A DNA stretch of 64,000 bases, from contig CACDEB010000003.1 of NCBI GenBank assembly GCA_902551755.1, positions 1-64,000 of the forward strand, given 5' to 3'. Origin of the DNA: an uncultured Pelagibacteraceae bacterium. GTDB lineage: Bacteria > Pseudomonadota > Alphaproteobacteria > Pelagibacterales > Pelagibacteraceae. The notes under the pieces were generated by a model. It saw only the letters and a list, made by a program, of their open reading frames with translations, was not told where the DNA came from and did no database searches. Of this stretch, positions 1,916-19,177 are shown piece by piece (position 1 is the stretch's first letter; the number at the start of each line of letters is the position of its first letter). The position numbers and the translations under genes were made by a program.

Positions 1916-1973
1916 TCCTTTATTTTAATAAATTCTTAACATAACTGACATAATAATAACGAAAGGAAATTTT

Positions 1974-3769: not shown

Positions 3770-3839
3770 ACTTTGGGTTGCATTAAATTTGCTTTTAGAT
3801 TTTTGAATTTTATGTTTAAATATTCCTGATTTAATTTTT

Positions 3840-3847
3840 AAGGAGGT
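3840..3847 (+). promoter_or_regulatory. Full-consensus ribosome binding site
   Basis: AAGGAGGT, a perfect complement of the 16S rRNA 3' end, lies six bases before the ATG at 3853. Most genes of this window have weak or no recognisable site, so this one stands out and argues that the short lysine-rich frame behind it is really translated, perhaps strongly. Confidence 0.7.
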
Positions 3848-3852
3848 TTAAA

Positions 3853-4059
3853 ATGAAAAAAAAGTTAAAAAAAAGTGAAAAGAAAAGACTGAAGATTTTA
3901 AAAACAATAGATAGATTGAAAAACAAAATAACTGCTAAAGAAAAAAAGCTATCTAATATAAACGTTAAAATTGCTGATATAGAAAAAAAGGTTGCAGAAA
4001 AAAAAGCAAGAAAACTAGCAAAAAAACAAGCTAGTGAAAGCTTATCTTTAAACAATTAA
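3853..4059 (+). CDS. Small lysine-rich coiled-coil protein, unknown
   Basis: A 68-residue, very basic protein in which more than a third of residues are lysine. Heptad-like spacing of I, L and V (for example LKILKTIDRL and IADIEKKVAEKK) predicts one long helix or a coiled coil, with a short polar tail. I do not recognise a family. The perfect ribosome site upstream supports it as real. It stands alone: 83 bases after the NUDIX gene, and convergent with ppx 176 bases away. Binding of nucleic acid or ribosomes would suit the charge but is speculation. Confidence 0.6.
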   Translation: MKKKLKKSEKKRLKILKTIDRLKNKITAKEKKLSNINVKIADIEKKVAEKKARKLAKKQASESLSLNN

Positions 4060-4073
4060 CAATTGATATGGGG

Positions 4074-4109
4074 TCTTTCTTCCCTATCAACTTAGACAAG
4101 GAAGAAAGA
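4074..4109. terminator. Perfect 10-bp hairpin between convergent genes
   Basis: The arms TCTTTCTTCC (4074-4083) and GGAAGAAAGA (4100-4109) are perfect reverse complements around a 16-base loop. It sits between the end of the lysine-rich gene (plus strand) and the end of ppx (minus strand), where a two-way terminator would be expected. It lacks the run of T directly after the stem, so it may be an mRNA-protecting hairpin or a weak terminator instead. Confidence 0.5.
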
Positions 4110-4235
4110 AGATAGTTAACAAAATTTAAATTTTTACAGAGGAAAAATAAGTTAAATAAAAATTCTGTTAAACTAAGTTAGAAAACTTTTGTTAAAAAAA
4201 TATTAATATAATATTACAATTTAATTAATATAATT

Positions 4236-5747
4236 TTATTTTGAATTATTTGAGTAAATAACTCTAGGTTCTAAAAATAATTCTCTAGCAAGAGCCTTAA
4301 ATCTTTTTGTTACCTGTTTAGAAATAATTTCTTGATGTTCAGTTGGAATTTTTAAAAATATTGAGTTACCCCTTTTATACAATTTAAATTCCTCAAGAAA
4401 AATTGTTGATATAGATGTTAAAGATTGTGAGAATCTCAAAGCAGCACCAACCTGTTTACTTGAAAATATTTCGTTATTATTTAAAAAAGTAAGATATTCA
4501 AATTTTGGATTGTATTTAATACTACAGTATCTCCAATAACAAGAGAGAGCTAATTGTATCCTTTCTTTATGTGTAAGTCTTAATAGAGGTGTGTTAAGAG
4601 TTTCTTGAAACACCAGTTCTGCTTTTTGAAATGCACCAAGACCCCAATCCATATGACTTAAAACGCAAGCTAGATGTAATAATTTTTTGTTATAGTGTTC
4701 ATTTCCATCAAAAACAGGGAGTATAAATTTAAAATATTTTTGGTATGTAGATCCTAAATCCCCCCTTTTTAATGCAATATATTCAATTGATTTAGTAAAA
4801 ATTTCTGACTCTTTTATATTTTTAAAATGATCAATTGATAAAGAACCTTCCCTCAAGCCACTAATTGAACAAATTATTTTTTTTGGATTTGTTATACTCA
4901 TTATCTCATCTAAAATAATAGAACTATACGGTAAAAATTGTGTTCTTGATTTTGAAATATATTCCACAGTTTTAAGTTTTGATTTATTAAATGATGAAAC
5001 TTTTTCAACAAATTTAGACAATGTTGATTTATCTATAGAATATTGATGAATAATATGAACAGGGTGATTATTTTGGAAAAGATGTAATTTAAATAAAGAT
5101 CTCCAAGTTCCTCCCACTAAATATAAATTATTAAATTTTTTTTTAGATAACCATTTTTCCTCTCTTAATAATTTTTTTACATACTTTGGTAAATTTCTTT
5201 TTTTAACAATTGGATTATTTATTAGTCTAAGTACACCAATTGGCAAAGAGGTTTTGTTTGTAACAACATTATTTTCAACTCTAGCTAATTCTAAACTTCC
5301 ACCACCAAGATCTGCTACCAAACCATCAACATTATCAAATCCAATTTTTACACCTTCAGCAGAACAATTTGCTTCTTCTTCACCGCTCAGAATATTAATT
5401 TTTGTTTTAAAAAGAGTTTCTACTTCGCTGATAAATTGTTTTGCATCTGTAGCCTCTCGCAAAACAGCAGTTGCAATTATTTTCAAATTTGTGATCCTTG
5501 ATACATTTAAAATTTCTGAAAATCTTTTTAAAACTTTTAATGCATATTCTGATCCAGATTTGTGTAGTTTTCTTGATTTATCTAAATTTTTTCCTAGTTC
5601 ACATACTGCTTTTTCATTAAATGTCGGAACTCTTGTTGAACTAAAATCATCATAAATCAGCATTCTTATAGAATTTGAGCCAATATCAATAATGGCTAAT
5701 TTTAAATGTTTTGATGAAGATTGTTGTTTTGTATTAATTACTTCCAC
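4236..5747 (-). CDS. ppx: Exopolyphosphatase, Ppx/GppA family
   Basis: Releases phosphate from polyphosphate ends, or 5'-phosphate from pppGpp; 503 residues. The ASKHA-fold phosphate loops are visible: DIGSNSIRML (residues 21-30), SGEEEANCSAEG (near 140) and VADLGGGSLEL (near 165). The C-terminal half is the helical extension typical of long Ppx proteins. Its start overlaps the ppk stop by 14 bases, so polyphosphate synthesis and breakdown are made from one message. The gene lies beside the pho/pst block, which fits phosphate storage. GppA activity cannot be excluded. Confidence 0.9.
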   Translation of the reverse strand: MEVINTKQQSSSKHLKLAIIDIGSNSIRMLIYDDFSSTRVPTFNEKAVCELGKNLDKSRKLHKSGSEYALKVLKRFSEILNVSRITNLKIIATAVLREATDAKQFISEVETLFKTKINILSGEEEANCSAEGVKIGFDNVDGLVADLGGGSLELARVENNVVTNKTSLPIGVLRLINNPIVKKRNLPKYVKKLLREEKWLSKKKFNNLYLVGGTWRSLFKLHLFQNNHPVHIIHQYSIDKSTLSKFVEKVSSFNKSKLKTVEYISKSRTQFLPYSSIILDEIMSITNPKKIICSISGLREGSLSIDHFKNIKESEIFTKSIEYIALKRGDLGSTYQKYFKFILPVFDGNEHYNKKLLHLACVLSHMDWGLGAFQKAELVFQETLNTPLLRLTHKERIQLALSCYWRYCSIKYNPKFEYLTFLNNNEIFSSKQVGAALRFSQSLTSISTIFLEEFKLYKRGNSIFLKIPTEHQEIISKQVTKRFKALARELFLEPRVIYSNNSK

Positions 5748-7890
5748 TTTTAATCAGTCTTAAATGCAATTTCTTAGGTTGCATAGTTAATTTAGCTTTA
5801 CCTCTTCCAGATAAGCTCGGGTTATTCATAAAGTATTCATGAGCTGAAAAGGAATCGTTCTTACTATATTTAATTTTTTTATAATTACCATCAGCATTAA
5901 GCTCCCAGCTCTGATTAGTATCAAGATAATTTGCTAACATTATTTGATCTAAAATCTGCTCATGAACAGTTTCATTTTCAATTGGCACTAGAAGCTCTAC
6001 TCTTCTATTTAAATTTCTTGGCATTAGATCGGCTGAGGAAATATATACTTTTGCATTTCTATTAGGCATTTTTTTAGTACCGTTACTAAAACAATAAATT
6101 CTAGAATGCTCTAAAAATCTTCCTATAATACTTTTTACAACTATATTTTCAGATCTATTTTTAATACCTGGCCTCAAACAACAAACACCCCTTACAAATA
6201 AATGAATTTTAACACCAGCATTCGAAGCTTCATAAAATTTATCAATAATTTCTGGATCTACTAATGAATTCATTTTTGCCCAAATAGCTGCAAATTTTCC
6301 ATTTTTAGAATTTTCAATTTCAGCATCAATGTTTTTATTTAAAGTTTGTCTCATATTAATTGGCGAAACAGAAATTTTATTTAAATTTTTTGGTTTTGCG
6401 TATCCTGTTACATAATTAAAAAATTTTTCAACATCTGATGCCATTTTCCTATCACAGCTGAATAAAGACAAATCAGTATAGATTTTAGCATTTACAGGAT
6501 GATAATTACCAGTTCCTAAGTGAAAATAAGTTTGTATTTTACCTTGTTCTCTTCTTAAAACTAATGATGATTTTGCATGAGTTTTGTATTTTGCAAAACC
6601 ATAAACAATTTGAACACCTACCTTTTCTAAACTTCTTGATAATTGAATATTTGCTTCCTCGTCAAATCTTGCTTTAATTTCTATTAAAGCAGTAACTGTT
6701 TTTCCATTTTCTGCAGCTGTTATTAAAGCTTTAACAATTGGTGAATCTAAAGTTGTTCTATACAAAGTTTGTTTTATAGCTATTACTTTTTTATCATTTG
6801 CTGCTTGGTTCAAAAATTCAATTACTGAGTCAAATGTTTCAAAAGGATGATGAACAACTAAATCTTTCCTTTTGATGGTTTCAAAAAAATTATCATTATA
6901 TTCTTTTAATCTTTCAACATCTCTAGGTACAAAATTTTTAAATCTTAATTTTGGATTTTTTAACTTACATATTTGATCTATATCTTGAATTCCAACAAGG
7001 CCAAATACATTATAAATATAATCAGGATTTACATCTAATTTGTTTGTTATAAATTTTATCAATTCATGATCACTATTTTCAAGGACCTCTAAACGAACAA
7101 TATCGCCCGTTCTACGTCTTTTTAAGGCTAATTCAAAAGATCTAACTAGATCTTCTGCTTCCTCTTGAATTTCAACATCACTATCTCTTATTACCCTGAA
7201 AATCATTTTTTTTTCTAAATCATGATCTGGAAAAATTTCTTTAGCAAAAAAACTTATTACATCGTCTAGAACAACAAATTTTTTATGATTTTTTGAAGAC
7301 TCTATTTCAATAAATCTAGATAATGCTTTTGGTACTACTATTATTGAGTTTAAAATTCTTTTTTTATTTTTTTTTCTTAACCTCATTACAAGCGCTCTTC
7401 CTTGGTTGATTATAAATGGAAATGGATGCGCAGGATCAATAGCAGATGGTGTTAATAAAGGATAAATCTCTTCTTTGAATATTTCTAGAAGTTTTTTTTT
7501 ATCCTTAGTATTTAAATTAACTGGCTTAACTAAACTGATATTGTTTTTTTTTAATTCTGCGATAAGTTGAATATAAATCCTATTTTGTTTGATTAATAGT
7601 TTTTTAGTTTCGGAAATTACCTCTTCCATTTGTTCATCAGGTGTCAGACCATCAGAACTTAATGAATCAACTTCTTGTTTTATTTGACTATATAGACCTG
7701 CTACCCGAACCATAAAAAATTCATCAAGATTTGAACCGGCAATTGATAAAAATTTTACTCTTTCATACAAGGGATTTTCAAGATTTTGTGCTTCAAAAAG
7801 AACTCTATCATTGAATTTTAACCAGGAAAGTTCCCTATTAATATATTTGTTCTTGAGTTCTTCTTTTTGTTGTTTTTTTAAGGCAGTCAT
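5734..7890 (-). CDS. ppk1: Polyphosphate kinase Ppk1
   Basis: Makes polyphosphate reversibly from ATP; 718 residues from the chosen ATG at 7890, close to the family's usual ~690-720. The N-domain begins NRELSWLKFNDRVL. The catalytic domains carry AIKQTLYRT, IEIKARFDEEANI and KTHAKSSLV, whose histidine is the autophosphorylated residue in the family, followed by the second conserved histidine in RFLEHSRIY. The frame is open for 74 more codons upstream, but that extension has no family similarity and would overlap the sixA coding region. Forms an overlapping pair with ppx. Confidence 0.93.
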   Translation of the reverse strand: MTALKKQQKEELKNKYINRELSWLKFNDRVLFEAQNLENPLYERVKFLSIAGSNLDEFFMVRVAGLYSQIKQEVDSLSSDGLTPDEQMEEVISETKKLLIKQNRIYIQLIAELKKNNISLVKPVNLNTKDKKKLLEIFKEEIYPLLTPSAIDPAHPFPFIINQGRALVMRLRKKNKKRILNSIIVVPKALSRFIEIESSKNHKKFVVLDDVISFFAKEIFPDHDLEKKMIFRVIRDSDVEIQEEAEDLVRSFELALKRRRTGDIVRLEVLENSDHELIKFITNKLDVNPDYIYNVFGLVGIQDIDQICKLKNPKLRFKNFVPRDVERLKEYNDNFFETIKRKDLVVHHPFETFDSVIEFLNQAANDKKVIAIKQTLYRTTLDSPIVKALITAAENGKTVTALIEIKARFDEEANIQLSRSLEKVGVQIVYGFAKYKTHAKSSLVLRREQGKIQTYFHLGTGNYHPVNAKIYTDLSLFSCDRKMASDVEKFFNYVTGYAKPKNLNKISVSPINMRQTLNKNIDAEIENSKNGKFAAIWAKMNSLVDPEIIDKFYEASNAGVKIHLFVRGVCCLRPGIKNRSENIVVKSIIGRFLEHSRIYCFSNGTKKMPNRNAKVYISSADLMPRNLNRRVELLVPIENETVHEQILDQIMLANYLDTNQSWELNADGNYKKIKYSKNDSFSAHEYFMNNPSLSGRGKAKLTMQPKKLHLRLIKSGSN

Positions 7891-7903
7891 ATATTTAGAA
7901 TTT

Positions 7904-8428
7904 ATGTTTGAATTATATGTCATGAGACATGCAAAATCCAGTTGGGAAGATTTAAATATTGATGATTTTAAGAGACCACTCAATAAAAGAGGTAAAAAAA
8001 GTGCGAAAAAAATTTGTGAATTTTTTGTTAAAAAAAAGTACAAATTTGATTTTGCTTTAATATCATCAGCTACAAGAACCCGAAGTACTTTTGAAATTTT
8101 ATCAAAAGACATTCCGGAGCCAAAAACTATAGAATATTCAAAGAGTTTATACTTGGCTGATGAATATGCAATTATAAATAAAATTAAAAAAATATCGAAT
8201 AATTACAAATCAATTTTGTTAATAAACCATGAGCCTACGGTTAAAAATTTAGTAAGATATCTAACAAAAAATCATGAAACAAATAATTTCAAATTAATGA
8301 ATTATAAATTTCCTACAGCAGCATTCGCCAAAATTAAATTTGATATTAAAGGTTGGGAAGAAATAGAAAAAAAAGGAATGTTAAAAGAATTTATAAGACC
8401 CAAAGATCTTCAAGACTCTAAAGAATAG
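7904..8428 (+). CDS. sixA: SixA-type phosphohistidine phosphatase (histidine phosphatase superfamily)
   Basis: 174 residues from the ATG at 7904; the catalytic RHAKSS (residues 8-13) directly follows the start, as in SixA proteins, and a second conserved histidine is seen in LLINHEPTVKNL. The frame is open further upstream, but that part is antisense to ppk and is not family-like. SixA removes phosphate from phosphohistidine on signalling proteins in Escherichia coli. Here the gene lies between ppk (divergent, 13 bases apart) and phoB (convergent, 19-base overlap), so an effect on PhoR or on another histidine phosphotransfer protein is an attractive but unproven idea. Confidence 0.82.
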   Translation: MFELYVMRHAKSSWEDLNIDDFKRPLNKRGKKSAKKICEFFVKKKYKFDFALISSATRTRSTFEILSKDIPEPKTIEYSKSLYLADEYAIINKIKKISNNYKSILLINHEPTVKNLVRYLTKNHETNNFKLMNYKFPTAAFAKIKFDIKGWEEIEKKGMLKEFIRPKDLQDSKE

Positions 8429-9093
8429 CCGGCAGATCTGACCGTTCTAATTAAAGGTTTTGTGTTTTCGATGTTTATAGCTTGTCTTAATCTTCTTATG
8501 TGTACATCAACCGTTCGTGACTCAACGTATATATTTTCTCCCCACACATTGTTTAAGAGTTGTTCTCTTGAGTAAACTCTTTTAGGATTTTTGATAAAAA
8601 AATCTAAGAGTTTAAATTCTGTTGGACCTAAAGTAATTTCCTTATCTTTTCTATAAACTCTTTTTGTAATCCGATCTATTTTTAAATCAGTAAATTCTAC
8701 AATATCCGATGATGATTGAGGCTTAGACCTTCTCAATAAAGATTTAATTCTAGCATTTAATTCTTTTTGACTAAAAGGTTTAGTTACATAATCATCTGCA
8801 CCTGTATCAAATGCTTTTAATTTGTCTTCTTCCTCCCCTTTTGCAGTCAACATAATGACAGGAATATCATTAAACTTATCATCTTTTTTTAAGTTTTTAC
8901 AAATTTCAACACCAGATAATTCAGGTAACATCCAATCCATTAATATCAAATCTGGCTGTTTAGACTTTATTTGTTTAAGAGCATCTTCTCCATTTTCTGA
9001 ATGACTGACTTTATAACCTTCTTTTTCAAGATTATATTTTAACAAACTAACAATTGATGCTTCATCTTCAGCTATGAAAACATGAGCTGACAT
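8410..9093 (-). CDS. phoB: Phosphate regulon response regulator PhoB
   Basis: OmpR-type transcription factor of 227 residues. The receiver domain has the acidic pocket EDE (9-11), the phosphoacceptor D53 in LMDWMLP, T83 in MLTAK and K105 in DYVTKPF. The C-terminal winged helix includes TEFKLLDFFIKNPKRVYSRE and the recognition region SRTVDVHIRRLR. It is the last gene of the phoR-pst-phoU-phoB series on this strand, three bases after phoU. It should bind the tandem 11-bp repeats found upstream of pstS, plcP and dagK. Confidence 0.93.
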   Translation of the reverse strand: MSAHVFIAEDEASIVSLLKYNLEKEGYKVSHSENGEDALKQIKSKQPDLILMDWMLPELSGVEICKNLKKDDKFNDIPVIMLTAKGEEEDKLKAFDTGADDYVTKPFSQKELNARIKSLLRRSKPQSSSDIVEFTDLKIDRITKRVYRKDKEITLGPTEFKLLDFFIKNPKRVYSREQLLNNVWGENIYVESRTVDVHIRRLRQAINIENTKPLIRTVRSAGYSLES

Positions 9094-9096
9094 AAA

Positions 9097-9804
9097 TCAT
9101 TTTTCTCCAGTTACAATTGGCTCTGTGCCCTTAGGTCTTTCACCTTCTAAATATTCACCTTTAACTAAATAATAAATTTGTTCTGCAACATTTGTAGTAT
9201 GATCACCAATACGCTCAACGTTTTTGGTCACAAACAACAAGTGAGTTCCATCCTCTAAATTTTTTTCATTTTCTTTAAGATATTTTATAACTTCTTGCAT
9301 ACAAAGATTTGTTAGATCATCTATTTGCTCATCACTTTCCCAAACATTTATTGCCATTGGCGCAGATCTTTCTAGATAAGCGTCTAATGTTGATTTTAAT
9401 TGTTTTTGAACACTAGTAGATACTCTATTTAATGCATCTACCAAATTCTTTGGAAGATTTTCATTAAGCAAAAGTGTTCTCTTGGATATATTTTTTGCTA
9501 AATCACCTATTCTCTCTAAATCCGAAGACATTTTCAGAGCCGTTACAGTCTCTCTTAAATCAATTGCCATAGGTTGTCTCAATGCAATTAAATTTACAAC
9601 TTGCTGTTCAACTAAAGTCTCAAATTTATCTATTTTTTCATCGTCTTGAATTACAGTTTCTGCAATATCGCTATTTCTTGTTGTAATGGCTTGAATAGCT
9701 TTACCTAAAGCATCCTCACACGCACTTCCCATTTTAATTATATTCGCATTAAGATTTTTGAGTTCTTCTTCGTAAGATTTAACTGTATGTGGCGCTTCAC
9801 CCAT
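9097..9804 (-). CDS. phoU: Phosphate transport system accessory protein PhoU
   Basis: Negative modulator that links the Pst transporter to PhoR signalling; 235 residues, the usual length. It consists of two repeated three-helix bundles, each with a metal-binding ExxxD-type motif: DLERIGDLAKNI in the first and NVERIGDHTTNV in the second, both strongly diagnostic. The start overlaps the pstB stop by one base, so PhoU and PstB are coupled. PhoU normally keeps PhoR silent when phosphate is plentiful. Confidence 0.95.
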   Translation of the reverse strand: MGEAPHTVKSYEEELKNLNANIIKMGSACEDALGKAIQAITTRNSDIAETVIQDDEKIDKFETLVEQQVVNLIALRQPMAIDLRETVTALKMSSDLERIGDLAKNISKRTLLLNENLPKNLVDALNRVSTSVQKQLKSTLDAYLERSAPMAINVWESDEQIDDLTNLCMQEVIKYLKENEKNLEDGTHLLFVTKNVERIGDHTTNVAEQIYYLVKGEYLEGERPKGTEPIVTGEK

Positions 9805-10559
9805 TATCCAAACCTCCCAGTTATATAATCCTGTGTTTTTGTGTTATCAGGATTCTTAAATATCTTATCAGTTGATCCATGTTCAATCAAATGTCCTAGG
9901 TGAAAAAAACCTGTATTTTGAGAGACACGTGCAGCTTGAGCCATAGAATGAGTTACAATTATTATTGTATGCTCCTTTTTTAACTCATCAATCAATTCTT
10001 CAATTTGTGCTGTTGCTATTGGATCTAATGCTGAACAAGGCTCATCCATTAATATAACTTCTGGTCTTACAGAAATTGCTCTAGCAATACAAAGTCTTTG
10101 TTGTTGTCCTCCAGATAAACCAGTTCCAGGTTCATGTAACCTATCTTTTACCTCTTCCCATAGTGCAGCCTTTTTTAAGCTAGTTTCAACAATTTCATCC
10201 ATTTCTTGCTTTGATTGAGCCATACCGTGAATTGTTGGGCCGTAAGATATATTTTCATATACAGTTTTTGGGAAAGGATTGGGTTTTTGAAAAACCATAC
10301 CAATTTTTTCTCTTAGTCTTACGACATCACAACTTTTATCATTGATATTAAAATCATTGATTAAAATTTCTCCTTTAACCCTGCAGATGTCAATTACATC
10401 ATTCATTCTATTAAGACATCTAAGAAAAGTTGATTTACCACAACCAGATGGACCAATTAATGCAGTTACTTGGTTTTCTTCAATATCTAAACCTATATTA
10501 TAGAGAGCTTGTTTTTTTCCATAAAAAACATCAACATCTTTTGCTTTAATCTTTATCAT
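9804..10559 (-). CDS. pstB: Phosphate ABC transporter ATP-binding protein PstB
   Basis: ATPase of the high-affinity phosphate importer, 251 residues from the ATG at 10559, preceded by GGAG at a good distance; an upstream ATG at 10580 lies within pstA and would add a seven-residue tail foreign to the family. Walker A is GPSGCGKST, the signature [14 protein letters not shown], Walker [14 protein letters not shown], and the switch histidine is in VTHSM. PstB-specific text such as RCLNRMND and VFQKPNPFP is present. One-base gap to pstA. Confidence 0.96.
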
Positions 10560-10560
10560 T

Positions 10561-11829
10561 TTAACTCCATTTTTTCTCAAACTTATGTCTTATTATTTGG
10601 GCAAATAAATTCATTATTATTAAAAAGCCAAGTAATACCATTATACATGCCGAAACTTTTTCTACAAATCCTCTTTCAGCACTTTCAGCCCAAATATAGA
10701 TTTGAACTGGTAAACTTGCAGCAGGATCCATTGGTGACCCAGGTATCGTGTTAACAAAAGCAACCATTCCAATTAAAATTAGGGGTGCAGTTTCTCCTAA
10801 AGCTTGAGCTAAACCAATTATTGTACCTGATAACGTCCCAGGCATTGAAAGAGGTACTGTATGATGCATTGTGGTTTGCATACGACTTGCTCCCATAGCA
10901 AGTGCTGCCTCTCTTATACTTGGTGGAACCGCTTTTAAGGATGCTCTCGCAGCTATAATTATTGTTGGTAAAGTCATCAACGACAAAGTGATACCTCCAA
11001 CTAAAGGAGTAGATCTGGGAAGATGAAATATAGCCAATAAAACACCTAATCCGAGTAATCCAAAGACAATAGATGGTACTGCGGCCAAGTTATTTATATT
11101 TACCTCAATAAAATCAGTAAACCTATTTTTAGGTGCAAACTCTTCAAGATAAATTGCTGCTAGTACCGCTACAGGAAAGGCTATCATTAAACAAACAAGT
11201 ATAGAAAAAATTGAGCCCATAAATGAACTAGCTATACCAGCAAGTTCTGCTTCTCTTGAGTCTGCATATGTAAAAAAACTGATATTAAATTTACTTTCGA
11301 CTTTACCCTTTGCAACAAGTTGATCAAAAATTTTTAATTGATAATCACTTACTCTTCTTTGATCTTCCGGTAAATCTCTTGGATAATTTCCTTTAAAGAC
11401 TTGATCTAAATCATCTGAAGCAGTTAAATAAACTTCTTTTGTTTTTCCTATTAAACTAGGGTTATTTAAAATCTCATTTTTAATTTCTTTTTCAAAAAAA
11501 TATGACACCATTCTCTTCAACTGATTTTTTTGATCATCATTTGCATTTTGATCTAAATCAGCCATAGATTTTAATGCTATATCGTAATAATCAGCGTCTT
11601 GAAGATCTTCTTTAGATGGATTTTGATCTATCATCATCATTTCAGCGTCAAAGTTTACAGGAACAATCAGCCATGTTTTTTGAAAAGCTGAATATCCAGT
11701 TGAAAATATTTTGAAAATAAAAATTGTTAAAAATAAAAGTGCCATAAAAATTGCACTTTGACCATATAAGCGAAATCTCCGTTCAGCCCTGTATCTTTTA
11801 TTTAATAATTGTTCTTTATTTTTATTCAT
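10561..11829 (-). CDS. pstA: Phosphate ABC transporter permease PstA
   Basis: Inner-membrane half of the phosphate channel, 422 residues. A first helix (about 22-44) is followed by a large periplasmic stretch of about 150 residues rich in D, Q and K, an extension seen in alphaproteobacterial PstA. The C-terminal half carries the six-helix permease core, including the ABC-contact loop [20 protein letters not shown]. The start overlaps pstC by eight bases. Confidence 0.94.
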
Positions 11830-13207
11830 ATTTCTCTCTATATTTTTTAACTACTCTTAAGGCTACAATGTTTAAACAAAGCGTTACTAAAAATAATGAC
11901 ATACCTAAAGCAAAAGCGGCTTGTGTTTTTGGATCACCAAAAGCTTGGTCTCCAATTAAAATTACCACAATTTGTGCTGTGATTGTTGAAGTAGATTCTA
12001 ATGGGTTAAAAGTCAAGTTTGCTGCTAAACCAGAAGCCATAACAACTATCATTGTTTCTCCAATAGCTCTTGAAACACCTAACAAAATAGATCCAACGAT
12101 GCCAGGTAATGCCGCTGGGAAAATAACTCTCTTGATTGTTTCTGATTTAGTTGCTCCCATAGCGTAACTTCCATCTCTTAAACTTTGAGGAACACTTGTA
12201 ATAACATCATCACTCAAGCTTGAGATAAATGGTATGATCATAATTCCCATTACTCCTCCTGCCGCTAAAGCACTTTCAGCTGAAACTTCAAGACCCATTG
12301 AAGTTCCTAATTCTTTTAAAAAAGGGCCAACAGTTAGAGCAGCAAAAAAACCATAAACAACAGTTGGTATACCAGCTAAAATTTCAATTAAAGGTTTTGC
12401 ATATTGTCTTACTTTGCTTGATGCATATTCAGCTAAATAAATTCCACTCATTAATCCAATTGGGATGGCTACGCACATAGCTATTAACGCTATAAAAAAA
12501 GTACCTGCAAAAATAGGGACTGCCCCAAAAGTATCGGAATACATTGTCGGATCTAAAGCCTCAGAAGAGTCTCTAACAAAAGCTTTTGCTGGATACCAGT
12601 GAGTTCCAAATACAAAATCAAATAATGGAATTACTTTAAAAAAATCTATTGTTTGAAATATAAGTGAAAAAACTATCCCAACAGTAGTTAATATTGCGGC
12701 TAAAGAAGCTGTAAATAAAACTGCGTTCAAAAATTTTTCAACTGGTTCTCTTGTTCTAGAATTAGATGAAATTCTTTTATAAGCGTAAGCAACTGAAGCA
12801 ATAATTATAGATAATACTATAACAGCTTTTGAACTTTGAGCTATTGATCGAAGACTTAAATATTTTTCTGCTGAAGCCTCAATAAAAGGTGTAATTTCTC
12901 CAGTAAATTGTCCCCGAGACAAGGATTTTGTTTTTTCGTATATTAAATTTAATTCATCATCAAGATAACCTTGATTTGAATAATCGCTTAAGACTAATAG
13001 TTTTACAATTGTAGGCTCAAAAATTGCCCATAAAGAAAAAATTATAAAGGCCGGTATTGCACACCAGATTGCAAGATAATAACCATAAAATTGTGGTAAT
13101 GCAGTTAATCTTTTTTTTGAAGATTGAATTGTATATGCTTTTCTCCGTCCAAAATAGTAACTTGTGAAACCTAAAAGAACTATAAATGTAAATAATATTA
13201 AGTTCAA
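11822..13207 (-). CDS. pstC: Phosphate ABC transporter permease PstC
   Basis: Partner permease of PstA, 461 residues. An N-terminal helix, a soluble periplasmic region (about 75-120) and a second helical region precede the core, which has the cytoplasmic contact loop SYAMGATKSETIKRVIFPAA. The start is TTG at 13207 with GGAGA five bases before it; no ATG fits as well. The gene lies 90 bases downstream of pstS behind a clear terminator hairpin, so expression below that of pstS is likely. Confidence 0.93.
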   Translation of the reverse strand: MNLILFTFIVLLGFTSYYFGRRKAYTIQSSKKRLTALPQFYGYYLAIWCAIPAFIIFSLWAIFEPTIVKLLVLSDYSNQGYLDDELNLIYEKTKSLSRGQFTGEITPFIEASAEKYLSLRSIAQSSKAVIVLSIIIASVAYAYKRISSNSRTREPVEKFLNAVLFTASLAAILTTVGIVFSLIFQTIDFFKVIPLFDFVFGTHWYPAKAFVRDSSEALDPTMYSDTFGAVPIFAGTFFIALIAMCVAIPIGLMSGIYLAEYASSKVRQYAKPLIEILAGIPTVVYGFFAALTVGPFLKELGTSMGLEVSAESALAAGGVMGIMIIPFISSLSDDVITSVPQSLRDGSYAMGATKSETIKRVIFPAALPGIVGSILLGVSRAIGETMIVVMASGLAANLTFNPLESTSTITAQIVVILIGDQAFGDPKTQAAFALGMSLFLVTLCLNIVALRVVKKYREKYE

Positions 13208-13242
13208 AGAATCTCCTATATTGAGGACTTTACTCTTATTTC

Positions 13243-13273
13243 AAAAAAAAGGGGTCTAAAAAGACCCCCTTTT
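13243..13273 (-). terminator. Intrinsic terminator/attenuator between pstS and pstC
   Basis: On the minus strand a 7-bp GC-rich stem (AGACCCC and GGGGTCT, plus strand 13251-13257 and 13262-13268) with a four-base loop is followed by eight T (plus-strand A run 13243-13250). It follows the pstS stop by about 25 bases. Partial readthrough would give abundant binding protein and less transporter, a common arrangement for ABC systems. Confidence 0.85.
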
Positions 13274-13297
13274 AAACATTTGTTAATCAAGAAATAA

Positions 13298-14329
13298 TTA
13301 ATTACCCATAGCAACTAGCTTTGTAGCATTAGTTCTTGTTGTTTTATACAACTTAGAGTCTAATGGTACTAAACCAATGTCCGCTAGGTAACCACCTTTT
13401 CCTATAGCTTTCTTCGTTGTGAATTCTTTCACAAACTCATGTAAGCCTGGAATTACTCCAACGTGAGCTTTTTTCACGTAAAAGAATAAAGGTCTTGCAA
13501 CAGCATAACTGTAGTCTTGAATAGACTTTAATGACGGTTGTCCACCATCAATACTTGCTGCTTGCAATTTATCTTTTGCAGCTAGGAAATAACTGAAACC
13601 AAAGAAACCAAACATTTCTTTATCTTGAGTTAACTTTTGGATGATCAAACTATCGTTTTCTCCAACTTCAATAGCAGCACCATCTTCTCTGTAAAGTTTT
13701 TGAGGTTTTTTGTATTTTTTATTTCCAGCTTCAAAACCAGCTTTATAAAGAGCTTTAGCTTCTTTAGTCATACCTTTTTTCATTACTAAAGAATTCCAAG
13801 CATCTCTAGTTCCTGATGTTCCTGGTGGAATCATCACTTTAATTTTTTGTTTTGGTAAACTAGGGTCAATTTGGTCCCAAGTTTTATAAATATTTGGAAC
13901 TAATTTACCATCAACAACTGTATGAGCGGCTAGCGCTAAGTATAATTGTTCTTTTGTAAAGTTTACTGGTTTTGCATCTTTACTGTAAGCTAATGTGATT
14001 CCGTCGTTTCCAATTACGATTTCAACGATTTCATTTACACCATTTTTCTTACAAAGAGCTTTTTCTTTATCTTTCATAGCTCTTGATGCGTTTGTTATAT
14101 CTGGATGTTGTTCACCTACACCAGCACAAAATAGTTTAGCTCCACCACCAGTACCAGTAGACTCAATAACAGGAGTTTTAAATCCTGAACCACCAAATCT
14201 TTCAGCAACAACAGTCGCATAAGGGAATACTGTAGAAGAACCAACTATCTTAATTTGATCTCTTGCTTGAGCAACAGTTGCTATTGACAAAGCAACTAAT
14301 GAAGCAATTATTATAGTTAGTTTTTTCAT
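13298..14329 (-). CDS. pstS: Phosphate-binding periplasmic protein PstS
   Basis: High-affinity phosphate-binding protein, 343 residues from the ATG at 14329. A signal peptide is clear: MKKLTIIIAS start, hydrophobic core, cleavage likely after AQA (about residue 22). Phosphate-contact motifs are GSSTVFPYA and ESTGTGGGAKLFC. A second ATG six codons upstream (14347) is possible, but the chosen one gives the classical MKK signal. A three-unit Pho-box-like repeat lies 67 bases upstream. PstS is usually one of the most abundant proteins of phosphate-starved marine bacteria. Confidence 0.95.
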   Translation of the reverse strand: MKKLTIIIASLVALSIATVAQARDQIKIVGSSTVFPYATVVAERFGGSGFKTPVIESTGTGGGAKLFCAGVGEQHPDITNASRAMKDKEKALCKKNGVNEIVEIVIGNDGITLAYSKDAKPVNFTKEQLYLALAAHTVVDGKLVPNIYKTWDQIDPSLPKQKIKVMIPPGTSGTRDAWNSLVMKKGMTKEAKALYKAGFEAGNKKYKKPQKLYREDGAAIEVGENDSLIIQKLTQDKEMFGFFGFSYFLAAKDKLQAASIDGGQPSLKSIQDYSYAVARPLFFYVKKAHVGVIPGLHEFVKEFTTKKAIGKGGYLADIGLVPLDSKLYKTTRTNATKLVAMGN

Positions 14330-14396
14330 TATCTTTAATCCTTTCATTATTTATTAATTAAAAGATGATTGACTCATATAAATTCATTGAATCTTT

Positions 14397-14429
14397 ATTA
14401 TTACAAAATTGTTACACTTTTGTTAAAAA
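14397..14429 (-). promoter_or_regulatory. Pho-box-like operator of pstS, three 11-bp repeats
   Basis: Read on the minus strand there are three consecutive 11-mers, TTTTTAACAAA, AGTGTAACAAT and TTTGTAATAAT, sharing the core T(G/T)TAA(C/T)A at exactly one helical turn. PhoB boxes are known as direct repeats of about 11 bp (CTGTCATA in Escherichia coli), and TGTAACA is a plausible variant. The repeats point toward pstS and end 67 bases before its start. Very similar repeats lie in the plcP/dagK spacer. Confidence 0.7.
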
Positions 14430-14461
14430 GGTAACTTTATAGTTGTAATCTAATAAAACAT

Positions 14462-15070
14462 TTAGTTGTATTTTTTGGATATAATTATCTTTTCAACATC
14501 AGTTTCTAGGCCACCCATACATGACACGGGGTTTACCTGTTCACTGAGAGCAAGTTCTTTGCTTGGACGTAAAGTTATTTCAAGTTTTACCAATTTTACT
14601 AATTCCTCTCTAATATCTTCATCATATCTCCAGCTAGGCCATGAACTTGGTGTTGAAAATATAGAGGTTAAATAACTTGTAGCCATAGAATATCTGTAAT
14701 TACTCAAATTTTCATTTCTCAATAAAAAATCTCTAACAGAACTAAAAATATTTCTACATCTTAAAGAATCTGAAAAATAATTTTCCTTCTTTAGATTTTT
14801 ATTCATAGGAACAGAAACAATTAAATCGATTGCATTTTTAGAATAAGAGGAAACTACATCTGTATAAAATTCAGTTTCAGTAATTTCTAAATGATTCTTT
14901 ATAGAAGGAAATGAGTTTTTTAAATCTGCTTCTAATCTAAAGATTCCAATATCAAAAACTGTAAGTTGCTGATTTCTTAATAATGTGGTGATATCTTTAG
15001 AAAAAGCACTTGTTGTTATAGAGCTTAATAAAAAAGCAAAAATCAAAATATTTTTGAATATTTTAACCAT
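14462..15070 (-). CDS. Unknown exported protein in the pho/pst locus
   Basis: A 202-residue protein that I do not recognise. It starts with a signal peptide (hydrophobic stretch about 7-20, likely cleavage after SAFS), so it should be periplasmic or outer-membrane attached. The mature part is mixed alpha/beta in character, has two cysteines (about residue 125 in LRCRNIF and near 184 in VSCMGG) that could form a disulfide, and aromatic text SWPSWRYDED. It lies between phoR and pstS on the same strand, 132 bases before pstS. A degenerate Pho-box-like repeat lies upstream, so induction by phosphate starvation is likely. Function unknown. Confidence 0.75.
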   Translation of the reverse strand: MVKIFKNILIFAFLLSSITTSAFSKDITTLLRNQQLTVFDIGIFRLEADLKNSFPSIKNHLEITETEFYTDVVSSYSKNAIDLIVSVPMNKNLKKENYFSDSLRCRNIFSSVRDFLLRNENLSNYRYSMATSYLTSIFSTPSSWPSWRYDEDIREELVKLVKLEITLRPSKELALSEQVNPVSCMGGLETDVEKIIISKKYN

Positions 15071-15111
15071 ATAAAAAATTAATTAAAAGATTAACATAAA
15101 TCAAGTAAAGA

Positions 15112-15144
15112 ATTGTTAAAAAAACCTTCTAAAACTATTACAAT
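15112..15144 (-). promoter_or_regulatory. Possible degenerate Pho-box upstream of the unknown exported gene
   Basis: On the minus strand ATTGTAATAGT (15134-15144) and TTTTTAACAAT (15112-15122) match the repeat unit seen at pstS and stand exactly 22 bp, two units, apart; the unit between them does not match. The box ends 41 bases before the start codon, closer than at the other genes. Weak on its own in such AT-rich DNA. Confidence 0.3.
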
Positions 15145-15160
15145 ATAATATTTTTTAAAT

Positions 15161-16306
15161 TTAAGTTTTCGCTGGTAAATAAATTTGAATTTCAGTTCCT
15201 TGGTTTTCCTCACTTAGAATCTCATAGTGTCCACGATGTTGAGTAATTATATGTTTAACAATAGCTAATCCTAAACCAGTTCCACCAACCTTGTTACTTT
15301 GTTCAAGGTCTACTCTAAAAAATCTTTCTGTAATTCTAGAAATATATCTTTGAGGAATACCAACACCTTCATCTTTAATACTAATCATAAAATTTTTTTC
15401 TAACAATTTGCCATCACTAATTTTGCTTGATATAAAAATAGACTTGTTTTCGTTTGAATACTTTATTGCATTGTCTAAAAGATTTGAAAAAACAGTTTGT
15501 AATTTTTTTTCATCTCCAATAACAATTGTTGGATTTGCGAGTGATAAATTAATATTTAATTTATTTTTTTTTAAAATAATTTCAAAATTACTAATAATTG
15601 TTTTGAAAAGGTCATTTATGTTAACTAAAGAGTTTGGCCTTATATGTTCTTCTAATTCAATTCTTGTGAGTATTAAAAGATCATTAATTAAATTTTCCAT
15701 TCTATTTGATTGTTCAGTTATTATTTTCATAAATTTTTTTTTAGCTTTATCGTCCGCTGCCGCCGGACCTTCAATAGTTTCTAAAGATCCTTTGATAGCC
15801 ATCAAGGGTGTTCTTAATTCGTGACTTACATTGGCTACAAAATCAGTTTTAAATTTTTGTGCTTTTGTAATTTCAGTAAAATCTTTTAAAAATAACACAA
15901 CAGAATCTGGTTCAGTAAATAAATGAGTTGGGCCAGGAATAATATAAATTTTATAAAATTGATATGATGGCAAGTCTATTTCTATATCAATGTTTTTGGT
16001 TTTATTTTCAACTATAGCTTTTTCAATATTTTCTATTAATTCTGGCTTTCGAATTACAGAAGATATGTTTTTATCAACTAAACTACTTCCAAATCTTTTT
16101 AATGCACTTGGATTAGCATACTTAATTATGTTAAATTTATTTAATGCAAAAAACTGATCTTCAAGCTCATCAATAATTACTCTTTTTGTTTTTTCCTCTC
16201 TTTTATTGATTATTGTAGCTGTATTTATTGACTTATTTTTTTTTTGATTAAGTAAATAGAGAAGATAAATTATAACAACTATAAGTAGAATGATAAAATA
16301 TTCCAT
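15161..16306 (-). CDS. phoR: Phosphate regulon sensor histidine kinase PhoR
   Basis: Membrane-anchored kinase of 381 residues. One helix (3-20) without a periplasmic domain is followed by a PAS-like region (about 45-145), the H-box FVANVSHELRTPL with phosphoacceptor H162, the N-box NLLDNAIKYS, G1 DEGVGIP and G2 GTGLGLAIVKHI. One N-terminal helix plus PAS is the PhoR pattern. It heads the series phoR, unknown, pstS, pstC, pstA, pstB, phoU, phoB. PhoR phosphorylates PhoB when Pst and PhoU report low phosphate. Confidence 0.9.
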   Translation of the reverse strand: MEYFIILLIVVIIYLLYLLNQKKNKSINTATIINKREEKTKRVIIDELEDQFFALNKFNIIKYANPSALKRFGSSLVDKNISSVIRKPELIENIEKAIVENKTKNIDIEIDLPSYQFYKIYIIPGPTHLFTEPDSVVLFLKDFTEITKAQKFKTDFVANVSHELRTPLMAIKGSLETIEGPAAADDKAKKKFMKIITEQSNRMENLINDLLILTRIELEEHIRPNSLVNINDLFKTIISNFEIILKKNKLNINLSLANPTIVIGDEKKLQTVFSNLLDNAIKYSNENKSIFISSKISDGKLLEKNFMISIKDEGVGIPQRYISRITERFFRVDLEQSNKVGGTGLGLAIVKHIITQHRGHYEILSEENQGTEIQIYLPAKT

Positions 16307-16370
16307 AAATTTAGATTGGTTAATTTTGCATCATTACGCTTTTTAATGCAAACAAATTAAAAATAATTAA

Positions 16371-17378
16371 CTAATGATTTGGTGAAATATTATTAAAAAA
16401 TATTTTTGCTGTTTCTTCCCAAGTGAATTTTTTTGCAAATTCAAGACAATCATTTCTATCAACTTTTAAAGCTTTATGGGCTGAAACTTTAAGATCATTA
16501 TCTAAACAATTTATTTTAGATCCTTCAAATATATCTTTGGGACCTGGGACAGGATACGCGGCAACAGGTGTTCCGCAATTTAAAGCCTCTGTAACTACAA
16601 TTCCAAATGTATCTGTTTTACTAGGGAATACAAATACATCGGAAGATGCAAAATGTGATGCTAATTCGCCATTTGTTTTTTCTCCTAAAAAAATATCTTT
16701 AGGAAATTCTTTTTTTAATTTTTTTAAATCAGGTCCTTTTCCTATTATTATTTTTGTACCTTCTAAATTACATTCTAAAAAAGCTCTTATATTTTTCTCA
16801 ACTGCAACTCTTCCAACATAAATCCAAATTGGTCTTTTGTGAGGTAAATCAATTTTTTTAGGGTTCTTAAAAGCTCCATGATTTCCTCCTCTAGTCCAAG
16901 TAATCATTTTATTATTGTCTATACCTATATCTATTAATTCTTTTCTCATAGACTCTGTTGTTACTAAAATTCTCTCAGCTTTGTTATGAAAGTTTGCTAG
17001 AAATTTTTCAGCCCATTTTGCAGGTATAATAGGAAAGTATAGTTTGATATATTTATCAAATCTCGTATGAAAACTGGTAGTAAACTTTAGATTATTTTTT
17101 AAACAATATCTTCTCGTCATAGTCCCAATAGGACCTTCGGTAGCGATATGAATTGCATCAGGTTTTATTTTTTTTATTAAACTACCGACTCTAGGCCAAA
17201 CATTAATTGATAGTCTAATTTCATTATATTTTGGCATCGGGAAAGTTAAAAATAAGTCTGGTGTAAGATATTCTATAATGTGACCTTGTTTTTTTAAGAT
17301 CTCACCTGTTTCATGAAGGGTTCTAACAACGCCATTTACTTGTGGAAAGTATGCATCTGTAGCAATTAAAATTTTCAT
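16371..17378 (-). CDS. agt: GT4 glycosyltransferase, Agt type, probable glycolipid synthase
   Basis: 335 residues with the GT-B fold of family GT4. The N-domain begins ILIATDAYFPQVNGVVRT, the C-domain has WIYVGRVAVEKN and the donor-site segment FPSKTDTFGIVVTEAL followed by CGTPVAAYPVPGP. This pattern is common in enzymes adding a sugar to diacylglycerol. It follows the plcP gene by three bases; in marine bacteria PlcP and Agt act in sequence, PlcP giving diacylglycerol and Agt glucosyl- or glucuronosyl-diacylglycerol. I infer the same here. Another mannosyl- or glucosyltransferase role is possible from sequence alone. Confidence 0.8.
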   Translation of the reverse strand: MKILIATDAYFPQVNGVVRTLHETGEILKKQGHIIEYLTPDLFLTFPMPKYNEIRLSINVWPRVGSLIKKIKPDAIHIATEGPIGTMTRRYCLKNNLKFTTSFHTRFDKYIKLYFPIIPAKWAEKFLANFHNKAERILVTTESMRKELIDIGIDNNKMITWTRGGNHGAFKNPKKIDLPHKRPIWIYVGRVAVEKNIRAFLECNLEGTKIIIGKGPDLKKLKKEFPKDIFLGEKTNGELASHFASSDVFVFPSKTDTFGIVVTEALNCGTPVAAYPVPGPKDIFEGSKINCLDNDLKVSAHKALKVDRNDCLEFAKKFTWEETAKIFFNNISPNH

Positions 17379-17381
17379 TAA

Positions 17382-18194
17382 CTATGAGGCTTTTTTTAAT
17401 TCGTCAGTTTTAATTGGTTTAATTGCTTTCTCAGCGTCTATAAATTTTTCTCTTATTTTGTCCCAATATAATATTTCAAAACTACCGTCATAATTTTCAG
17501 CTAATGCAGTGCAAGATTCAACCCAATCTCCACAATTCAAATAATTTATGCCATTAAAATCTCTATCCTCAGGGTGATGAATGTGACCGCAAATTATTCC
17601 ATCAAATTTTTTTGTTTTTGCATAATCTGAGACAGTCTTTTCATATTCACCGATATATTTGACTGCATTTTTGACTTTATACTTTAAAAATTTTGCAAGA
17701 GACCAATATTCTTTTCCTCTTAACCTTCTAAAAAAGTTAATTATTACATTAAATTGTAACAATAAATTATATGCTATTGATCCAAGTTTAGACAACCATT
17801 TAGCATGTTTCATTACTCCATCCCAAGCATCACCATGAACAACTAAATATTTTTTCCCAGTGTTTGTTTCATGAATAACTCTATTAACCATATGAATGTC
17901 GCCAAAATGCAGTGGAATAAATTTTCTAAACATTTCATCATGATTACCCATTACATAGAAAACTCTGGTACCATGTCTTGCTTTTCTTAAAATTTTTTGA
18001 ATTACATCATTATGTTCTTGGGGCCAAAAAAAACTTTTTTGCATTGCCCATACATCGATAATGTCTCCTACTAGATAAAGATTTTCGGATCTTGAGTTTT
18101 TAAAAAACTCTAAAATTTTATTTGCCTGACAGCCTTTAGTTCCTAAGTGTAAATCAGAAATAAATATACTTTTGTATTTAAGTATTTTAGGCAT
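17382..18194 (-). CDS. plcP: PlcP-type metallophosphoesterase (phospholipase C)
   Basis: 270 residues of the calcineurin-like phosphoesterase fold related to UDP-2,3-diacylglucosamine hydrolase. Metal ligands are D14 and H16 (DLHLG), D44 (GDIID), N84 and H85 (GNHDE), H120 (VVHGD), H204 and H206 (GHIHH). Family members in rhizobia and marine bacteria cut phospholipid headgroups during phosphate starvation. Three facts support this reading over LpxH: the partner glycosyltransferase three bases downstream, the Pho-box-like operator 59 bases upstream, and a separate LpxI gene (53105-53893) that already covers the lipid A step. Confidence 0.85.
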   Translation of the reverse strand: MPKILKYKSIFISDLHLGTKGCQANKILEFFKNSRSENLYLVGDIIDVWAMQKSFFWPQEHNDVIQKILRKARHGTRVFYVMGNHDEMFRKFIPLHFGDIHMVNRVIHETNTGKKYLVVHGDAWDGVMKHAKWLSKLGSIAYNLLLQFNVIINFFRRLRGKEYWSLAKFLKYKVKNAVKYIGEYEKTVSDYAKTKKFDGIICGHIHHPEDRDFNGINYLNCGDWVESCTALAENYDGSFEILYWDKIREKFIDAEKAIKPIKTDELKKAS

Positions 18195-18207
18195 ATAAAA
18201 AACTTTT

Positions 18208-18229
18208 ATTTAATACAACTGTAACACGA
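18208..18229 (+). promoter_or_regulatory. Pho-box-like operator pointing to dagK
   Basis: Two 11-mers, ATTTAATACAA and CTGTAACACGA, give the TGTAACA core (the first as TTTAATA) at an 11-bp step in the plus orientation. The second unit is the best match to a CTGTCATA-type half site in the window. The box ends 63 bases before the dagK start codon. Confidence 0.55.
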
Positions 18230-18253
18230 ATCATGTATTTCTTATTTCATTTA

Positions 18254-18275
18254 AATGTTACAGATTTGTTAAAAA
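18254..18275 (-). promoter_or_regulatory. Pho-box-like operator pointing to plcP
   Basis: On the minus strand the 11-mers TTTTTAACAAA and TCTGTAACATT follow each other without a gap. The first is identical to a unit of the pstS operator and the second shares CTGTAACA with the dagK box. It ends 59 bases before the plcP start, close to the distance at pstS (67). Confidence 0.65.
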
Positions 18276-18292
18276 TTTTTTAAGGAATAATT

Positions 18293-19177
18293 ATGTTATG
18301 TTGTTTAATTTATAATCTAAACTCTTCTTCTGGGAAAAAATCAAAATTCATAAAAAGGGTTTTATTTAAGTTAAAAAAAAAAAATTCTGTAGACTATTTT
18401 GAGACAAAAACAATAAATCAGGCTAGAGAAATTTTTAGAGATTTTAATCAAAAAAATTACGATCGATTAATTGTAGCAGGTGGAGATGGGTCTGTGTCTT
18501 TTGCAATTAATGAACTAATTAAAAATAATTTTAATTTTAAAGACGATTTTGCTATAGGTTATATACCTGCTGGTACCGCAAATTTACTTCAGGCTGAATT
18601 ATCAATGAATAAAAAAGTTGATGATATAGTTAATGTATTAGTTTCTAGCAATTATAAAACCTCTAATCTTCTAAAAATTAATGAAAGTTTTTTCTTTTTA
18701 ATGGCTGGTATAGGATGGGATGCAAAAATTGTCCATTCAATTAATTCAAAAATTAAAAAGTTGCTTGGTAAAATTATATTTGTTATTAAAGGTTTTCAAT
18801 ATTTCTTGTTTATGAATAATAAAAAATTAAGTGTTACTTTTGACGGACAATTTTATAAAGCAGATTGGATACTGTCCTCAAATACCAAATATTATGCTGG
18901 GCATTATAAAATAAATAAAACAAATATTTTTGAAGATAAATTAGTAACCTATATATTTAGGGATTTGACAAGGATTAATTTATTATATTCCATATTTTTA
19001 ATAATCTTTAATGGCGATTTAAGTAAAAACAAAAATGTTATTACTACTTATTCTCAAAATATCACCATTGAGGGAAATGATTTAATACCTGTTCAAATTG
19101 ATGGAGATAATTTTGGTTCATATAAAAAAATTCATTTAAGTAAATCAAATAAAAAAATAAATTTTCTTGTAAAATAA
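18293..19177 (+). CDS. dagK: Diacylglycerol kinase, LCB5/YegS family
   Basis: 294-residue lipid kinase. The catalytic-domain motif AGGDGSVSFAINEL contains GGDGS at residues 63-67, and YIPAGTANLLQAEL is the second conserved nucleotide-site block. The C-terminal beta domain ends in IPVQIDGDNFG, typical of the family. It is divergent from plcP, each gene having its own Pho-box-like repeat. Phosphorylating diacylglycerol to phosphatidic acid would return leftover diacylglycerol to phospholipid synthesis and counterbalance PlcP. A sphingoid-base substrate is unlikely in this context. Good ribosome site (AAGGA) before the ATG. Confidence 0.83.
   Translation: MLCCLIYNLNSSSGKKSKFIKRVLFKLKKKNSVDYFETKTINQAREIFRDFNQKNYDRLIVAGGDGSVSFAINELIKNNFNFKDDFAIGYIPAGTANLLQAELSMNKKVDDIVNVLVSSNYKTSNLLKINESFFFLMAGIGWDAKIVHSINSKIKKLLGKIIFVIKGFQYFLFMNNKKLSVTFDGQFYKADWILSSNTKYYAGHYKINKTNIFEDKLVTYIFRDLTRINLLYSIFLIIFNGDLSKNKNVITTYSQNITIEGNDLIPVQIDGDNFGSYKKIHLSKSNKKINFLVK

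Follow-up and report, generated by a model that had tools for sequence, protein, structure and literature searches.

We analysed a stretch of 64,000 nucleotides, hereafter the window, of contig CACDEB010000003.1 (assembly GCA_902551755.1) from an uncultured SAR11 bacterium of the Pelagibacteraceae, whose genome comprises 1.07 Mb in 12 contigs and is 92 percent complete. SAR11 bacteria rank among the ocean's most abundant cells, and many of the waters they inhabit are limited by phosphate. Our subject is a block of phosphate genes at positions 4236-19177. All genes that a first-pass annotation had listed there were present, contiguous and in frame, as judged by open reading frames and family scans. 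The block begins on the minus strand with ppx (exopolyphosphatase, 4236-5747; PF02541, 9.9e-43; TIGR03706, 263 bits, cut-off of 307 not reached) and ppk1 (polyphosphate kinase, 5734-7890; TIGR03705 over cut-off), which starts at the ATG at 7890; the mechanical reading frame to 8112 begins too early. A gene for a sixA-like histidine phosphatase (7904-8428, plus strand; PF00300, 1.2e-8) diverges from ppk1, and the two starts lie 13 bp apart. The minus strand continues with phoB (response regulator, 8410-9093; TIGR02154, 331 bits, over the cut-off of 296), phoU (9097-9804; TIGR02135), pstB (9804-10580; TIGR00972), pstA (10561-11829; TIGR00974) and pstC (11822-13207; TIGR02138), the last four over their cut-offs, and with pstS (13298-14347; PF12849, 4.3e-42; TIGR02136, 137 bits, below the cut-off of 207). 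Next on this strand are expX (14462-15070), of unassigned function and signal-bearing to judge by eye from its N-terminus, phoR (sensor kinase, 15161-16306; TIGR02966, 279 bits, below the cut-off of 334), agt (predicted GT4 diacylglycerol glycosyltransferase of the GTcp type, 16371-17378; PF13439/PF00534) and plcP (metallophosphoesterase, putative phospholipase C, 17382-18194; PF00149). Finally, dagK (18293-19177, plus strand; PF00781, 1.6e-22; DgkB, 1.8e-18) encodes a DAGK_cat lipid kinase with an altered active site. Curated cut-offs were passed by PhoB, PhoU, PstA, PstB, PstC and Ppk1, and the three proteins below theirs (PhoR, PstS and Ppx) were named by best match, Pfam family and place. 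The groups plcP-agt-phoR-expX, pst-phoU-phoB and ppk1-ppx read leftward, and dagK, sixA and an arsC group described below read rightward; since sixA and dagK lie on the opposite strand, the block is not one operon.

For gene order we examined the 80 named loci that ranked best among 359 PlcP matches and hence are close relatives (PlcP identity 89-99 percent); adjacency was counted only in loci extending at least 700 bp past the first gene. The order was conserved nearly without exception: dagK adjoined plcP in 79/79 loci, plcP adjoined agt in 77/77 and agt adjoined phoR in 73/75, and the adjacencies phoR-expX (69/69), expX-pstS (69/69), pstS-pstC (67/68, the single exception being L051) and phoB-sixA (64/64) were similarly stable. 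This gene order is not due to chance. Inverted or joined orders within the island were seen in L021, L059 and L076, possibly as artefacts of single-cell amplification. We also searched 101 genomes of the genus and a sister family, the window's own included; loci L001-L080 partly overlap these genomes, so that the two sets are not independent. Because many of the genomes are incomplete, absence is weak evidence and synteny weighs more. The plcP gene was found in 34 of the 101 genomes (15 from the genus, 19 from the sister family) and dagK in 15, which are the same 15 genus genomes; no dagK was found in the sister family within this set of often incomplete genomes. Matches to pstC occurred in 60/101 genomes, a few of them partial or weak. 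None of the 15 genus genomes with plcP contradicted the proposed linkage of agt, plcP and dagK to the pho genes: phoR adjoins agt on the plcP contig in 14 of them, and in G016 the plcP contig stops after agt and another contig starts with phoR. In the sister family plcP occurs without dagK, yet it stands beside pho genes in both plcP loci that were read whole (L148 and L149); L148 runs plcP-agt-(sixA)-ppk1-ppx-phoR-pstSCAB-phoU-phoB-arsC-aqp, an order that differs from the window's. Six genomes with the window-type pst and no plcP match (G011, G017, G027, G033, G039 and G051) neither support nor refute the linkage, their contigs ending before the plcP position, and a search of plasmids for relatives of plcP and dagK gave only matches below 60 percent identity, of no use for linkage. 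The named loci and the co-occurrence of the genes thus support a single phosphate island with a conserved order.

The island lies between zur and manC, a site that holds at least four alternative contents in the genus. Among 18 other same-genus loci readable on both sides, 7 carry a plain phoB-phoU-pstBACS-phoR set, 7 carry the aquaporin gene aqp with or without arsC and lack pst, and 4 carry neither; this count was made by hand, with a DUF6552 gene in place of zur in G009 and zur not adjacent in G022 and some others. The flanks of G008 are near-identical to those of the window (zur 100, manC 98 and ilvD 99 percent), whereas its island genes have diverged (pstC 58, pstS 62 and phoR 46 percent). 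Differing content thus sits inside the same conserved flanks, as expected of a flexible (replacement) island.

Candidate Pho boxes were scored on both strands of the window (127,968 positions) with a 17-base matrix trained on 14 distinct pstS promoter sites from other genomes, among them sites of the pst-only version and of the sister family; some training sites are identical to the window's pstS site. The top four positions were two pstS sites, the plcP site and the dagK site. The predicted pstS box (14400-14427, minus strand) consists of three 11-bp repeats and takes ranks 1 and 3, the box facing plcP (18257-18273, minus strand) takes rank 2 and the box facing dagK (18209-18225, plus strand) takes rank 4, so that the divergent plcP and dagK each have their own predicted Pho box in opposite directions. 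Upstream sequences of relatives were then scored at p<0.01 against random window stretches; these distinct sequences are related and the counts are not independent. All 46 distinct pstS upstreams passed (the matrix being trained on sites of the same set), as did 67/67 for plcP and 50/53 for dagK. Among the upstream sequences listed, the best plcP site is 62-67 bases away from the start codon, also in the sister family. A weak candidate box precedes expX (15104-15120, minus strand, rank 8), and weak sites passed in 27/34 distinct expX upstreams. By contrast, none of 26 distinct phoR upstreams passed, and a scan of about 150 bp upstream on each gene's own strand gave no convincing box for phoR, ppk1, sixA or ppx (best window sites at ranks 126, 80, 337 and 3255 of 127,968, respectively); these four genes may be expressed by read-through from other promoters. 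An element of the form AACT-N4-AGTT, immediately upstream of the pstS box (about 14430-14446), is conserved in both genus pst versions.

We further searched whole genomes with a strict Pho-box pattern, TTTAAYNNNNNTGTAAC, fitted to three window sites, and a looser one, TKTMAYNNNNNTGTMAY, with the reversed pattern as control. The strict pattern gave 3 matches in the source genome, all within the island (control 0). The looser pattern gave 20 (control 5), of which four were island promoters, 15 lay inside reading frames and one overlapped a frame, as judged by a crude call of reading frames. The 14 other plcP genomes together gave 46 strict matches, 25 at island promoters (hand count from coordinates) and 21 off them, compared with 20 in the reversed control; one of the off-promoter matches falls just beyond dagK in G029. 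The 11 genomes without plcP gave 11 strict matches, one of them in the pst region (G009), against 12 in the control. Pho boxes have been reported for plcP clusters, with agt downstream of plcP (PMC4796936, PMC8231724; papers cited by PMC number are represented here by excerpts). In the literature searched, which omits most subscription papers, we recognised no description of a dagK Pho box or of a Pho box before a SAR11 arsC.

The PlcP protein has a calcineurin-like metallophosphoesterase domain (PF00149, 50.5 bits against a cut-off of 21.5) and is predicted to cleave phospholipid headgroups. It is not a true LpxH, as the LpxH models gave 53 and 42 bits against cut-offs of 134 and 190. A family search of its own genome with PF12850 found nothing, although hmmscan lists PF12850 for PlcP, and it was not used. 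Lipid remodelling of strain HTCC7211 by plcP and agt is said to have been described by Carini in PNAS in 2015. A Phaeobacter plcP mutant regained betaine-lipid synthesis when given the HTCC7211 plcP (PMC4796936), and sugar transfer to diacylglycerol was demonstrated with purified GTcp (PMC8231724). Agt is identical to GTcp at 15/15 of the positions mutated in the latter work and is therefore a predicted diacylglycerol glycosyltransferase of this type. The lipid swap that the first-pass annotation ascribed to PlcP and Agt had accordingly been published, with SAR11 PlcP and Agt tested experimentally in those two papers. The dagK product, the sole DAGK_cat match in its genome, retains the DAGK_cat domain and the GGDG motif (residues 63-66), and its 8 sequence matches in the PDB bear the names of diacylglycerol kinases or of YegS/BmrU-type lipid kinases. 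It carries Asp272 at the position of DgkB Glu273, which we take to be an active-site residue, and Leu98 (Ile in L090) at that of DgkB Asp97. In DgkB, Asp97 binds Mg via water (PMC7864038). Since neither residue is kept, we class the protein just as a DAGK_cat lipid kinase: of its annotation as a diacylglycerol kinase, the family assignment stood and the specific name is unsupported on sequence alone. A ceramide kinase identity was also considered, after PMC10331486 and not by sequence comparison.

The neighbouring expX product matched no Pfam or NCBIfam family, and its PDB sequence matches all had E near 0.8. Its AlphaFold model (mean pLDDT 73.8) had no Foldseek match at E<=0.001 and a best Z of 7.3, to sex-pheromone-precursor domains, with no convincing solved relative. 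Within the 101-genome set, 8 genomes of the sister family contain distant homologs (31-39 percent), and in the three contexts listed (L161, L164 and L165) these lie away from pho genes, so that a phosphate role of expX is not certain.

To the left of ppx lies a plus-strand group of four genes, overlapping or 2 bp apart: a DUF6552 gene for a small membrane-like protein (1974-2192; PF20189, 2.6e-10), arsC for an arsC-like arsenate reductase of the LMWP family (2195-2632; PF01451, 5.5e-17; arsC_pI258, 66 bits, below the cut-off of 174), aqp for an aquaporin-family channel that is AqpS-like by neighbourhood (2622-3281; PF00230, 1.4e-27) and a NUDIX hydrolase gene overlapping aqp (3278-3769; PF00293, 1.2e-6). 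A weak candidate Pho box of three 11-bp repeats (TTTAAT-AAATT-CTTAAC-ATAAC-TGACAT; 1924-1951, plus strand, rank 7 of 127,968) precedes the DUF6552 gene, the first of this arsC operon, and a box at p<0.01 was found there in 7/9 sources with arsC and 2/15 without. In the sister family, arsC begins 2 bp after phoB in L148 and is followed by aqp, and arsC-aqp stands beside phoB in L149 and L150. The island thus probably reaches left to DUF6552-arsC-aqp-nudix, in which case the borders first drawn for it would be incomplete. The DUF6552 gene itself was found in 24 of the sources (9 with arsC, 15 without), often adjoining zur, and may be an anchor of the hot spot. In L148 (17857-19765), two genes follow arsC-aqp, the first of them PhnM-like to judge by eye; they may serve phosphonate use.

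Several described systems resemble parts of this island. The flexible phosphate island of the SAR11 genomospecies gMED and gWID likewise has pstSCAB-phoU and phoB-phoR at one position, in versions less than 60 percent alike; it differs in having phosphonate genes, which the window's island lacks, and the excerpts do not mention plcP, agt, dagK or arsC for it (PMC7318151). Islands fGIp-C, D, E and H of HIMB59, a bacterial order different from that of the window's SAR11, hold pst, phoRB, ppk, ppx, sixA, 'LpxH' and 'RfaG', together with diacylglycerol kinase (absent in H), GlpF (absent in E) and tyrosine phosphatase genes, and larger versions occur in phosphate-poor water (PMC10734472). Going by these descriptions and not by sequence comparison, it is possible to read LpxH and RfaG as PlcP and Agt, and GlpF and the phosphatase as arsenate defence. 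For the plcP-agt remodelling of HTCC7211, neither dagK nor a link to pst and arsC is treated in the excerpts (PMC4796936, PMC8231724). Among HTCC7211-only genes enriched in the Sargasso Sea, clusters with a DAGK catalytic domain, a metallophosphoesterase and a group-1 glycosyl transferase, kinds of gene that the window also has, stand in one list of those most frequent at BATS; this set is an abundance list, and its excerpts give no island or regulation for those clusters (PMC3686209). Finally, the SAR11 arsC-aquaporin arsenate module matches the window in its LMWP arsC and in the aquaporin downstream on the same strand, and it is more frequent at low phosphate; no Pho box or linkage to a pst island is described in the excerpts (PMC6426599). 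Most of the island, the lipid swap and the alternative versions at one position in SAR11 and HIMB59 are therefore already known. New here are the ranking of the predicted promoter boxes of dagK and plcP and the co-occurrence of these genes, the probable extension to the left, the range of contents at the site and the lack of a convincing Pho box before ppk1, ppx, sixA and phoR.

The genes, their order and co-occurrence, the alternative versions at one site and the conserved candidate boxes are direct observations. Our interpretation, held with a probability of about 0.72, is that the window carries an exchangeable island of a Pelagibacter-like (SAR11) cell, in its version for phosphate-poor water, and that PhoR-PhoB switches on its uptake, lipid-sparing and arsenate genes in starvation. 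How the genes are regulated, how lipid flows, what the kinase acts on, and the links to arsenic and to phosphate-poor water are what we infer. At low phosphate, PhoR-PhoB would bind the strong sites before pstS, plcP and dagK, and probably also the weaker ones before expX and the DUF6552-arsC-aqp operon. PstSCAB would import phosphate, PlcP would remove phosphate headgroups from phospholipids and Agt would add sugar to the resulting diacylglycerol. The DAGK_cat kinase, co-induced with plcP, would probably turn part of this diacylglycerol into phosphatidate, which may keep the diacylglycerol pool from excess and allow some phospholipid still to be made. ArsC and the channel would clear arsenate that enters with phosphate, and Ppk1 and Ppx would store and release polyphosphate under a control that is not visible in the sequence. 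The earlier claim of one functional island held as far as a phosphate island goes; Pho control of ppx, ppk1 and sixA was not shown, and the proposed extent probably fell short on the left.

Several findings weigh against this interpretation. The strict pattern was derived from the three window sites, and the relatives do not count as independent evidence. Of the distinct dagK upstreams, three (of the G016/G032 and G047/G054 types) do not pass the matrix, and the strict match that lies between plcP and dagK in G016 and G032 faces plcP, not dagK. There is no strict match at plcP or dagK in G041, G018, G047, G050 and G054; G041 and G018 have none at any island promoter, and the other three have the pstS one only. 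Looser sites pass at plcP and dagK in G041 and G050, and weakly at plcP only in G047/G054 (p 0.0092). The arsC-operon box is absent in 2/9 arsC sources and present in 2/15 without arsC, and ppk1, ppx, sixA and phoR had no convincing box in the upstream scan. In addition, a kinase that remakes phosphatidate during starvation opposes phosphate sparing, and its active site differs from that of DgkB.

The kinase admits two other explanations. It had been proposed that dagK is off in starvation and returns diacylglycerol to phospholipid on recovery, which agrees with the chemistry of the DAGK_cat family and with its transcription apart from agt-plcP. However, dagK has its own conserved Pho box, opposite to and mirroring that of plcP, and starvation co-induction is therefore the better prediction; a PhoB site can also repress, and we regard action on recovery as improbable and dagK as probably a starvation gene. 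These boxes suggest that the predicted lipid genes plcP, agt and dagK would be switched on together in starvation. Alternatively, the protein could act on another substrate or have lost activity, serving a different non-phosphorus lipid step. The Leu or Ile in place of DgkB Asp97, the Asp in place of Glu273 and a dagK-plcP link confined to the window's genus among the genomes searched speak for this, whereas the retained GGDG motif and fold family and the kinds of kinases among the PDB matches speak against it, leaving it a possibility of some weight that we consider unlikely.

Doubts of a similar kind attach to the left border. The arsC-aqp operon might be a mere neighbour at an insertion hot spot, outside the phosphate response, since the site holds aqp, with or without arsC, and no pst in G019, G035, G038, G046, G052, G058 and G060 and the box does not strictly follow arsC. 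This seems rather unlikely in view of the Pho-box-like site in most arsC sources, the placement of arsC directly after or beside phoB in L148, L149 and L150, and the tyrosine-phosphatase and GlpF genes in HIMB59 islands (PMC10734472). A chance neighbourhood of housekeeping genes, retained by common descent alone, is far less probable still: SAR11 gene order is generally conserved, but the island content varies between flanks of up to 100% identity (G008) and the sister family groups the same genes in a different order (L148).

If phosphate sensing, uptake and storage, together with lipid sparing and arsenate defence, do move as one exchangeable block with its own switch sites, a cell could change its phosphorus strategy at a stroke. 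A stronger version, which we offer tentatively and would not favour on balance, is a portable regulon: in this streamlined cell almost every strong PhoB target would be located in the island that also encodes PhoR and PhoB, so that one zur-manC recombination would swap the sensor, the regulator, all the target promoters and the arsenate defence. It was proposed because the only clearly intergenic looser matches in this 92-percent-complete genome are the four of the island (crude call of reading frames), and because strict off-promoter matches in the 14 relatives do not rise above the reversed-control level. The proposed exchangeable block also suggests testable roles for the HIMB59 glycosyltransferase, kinase and GlpF, which have been described as without direct phosphate function (PMC10734472).

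The junction of manC and dagK, where the gap is 0 bp in the window, varies among the named loci. A phosphonate-making cassette separates the two genes in 7 of the 74 named loci that have both (L025, at 2292-8376, and L010, L020, L026, L032, L045 and L054) and includes, by similarity to L025, phosphoenolpyruvate (PEP) mutase, phosphonopyruvate decarboxylase and an Fe-alcohol dehydrogenase. Five of the 7 cassettes also have a match resembling methylphosphonate synthase, and for the L025 protein the match to the solved enzyme is at 1.7e-108; methylphosphonate making next to phosphate sparing is an odd combination. In L046 (3180-8804), a different cassette fills the gap, with a PEP-utilising-like enzyme and, by eye, glutamine-amidotransferase-like and nucleotidyltransferase-like proteins.

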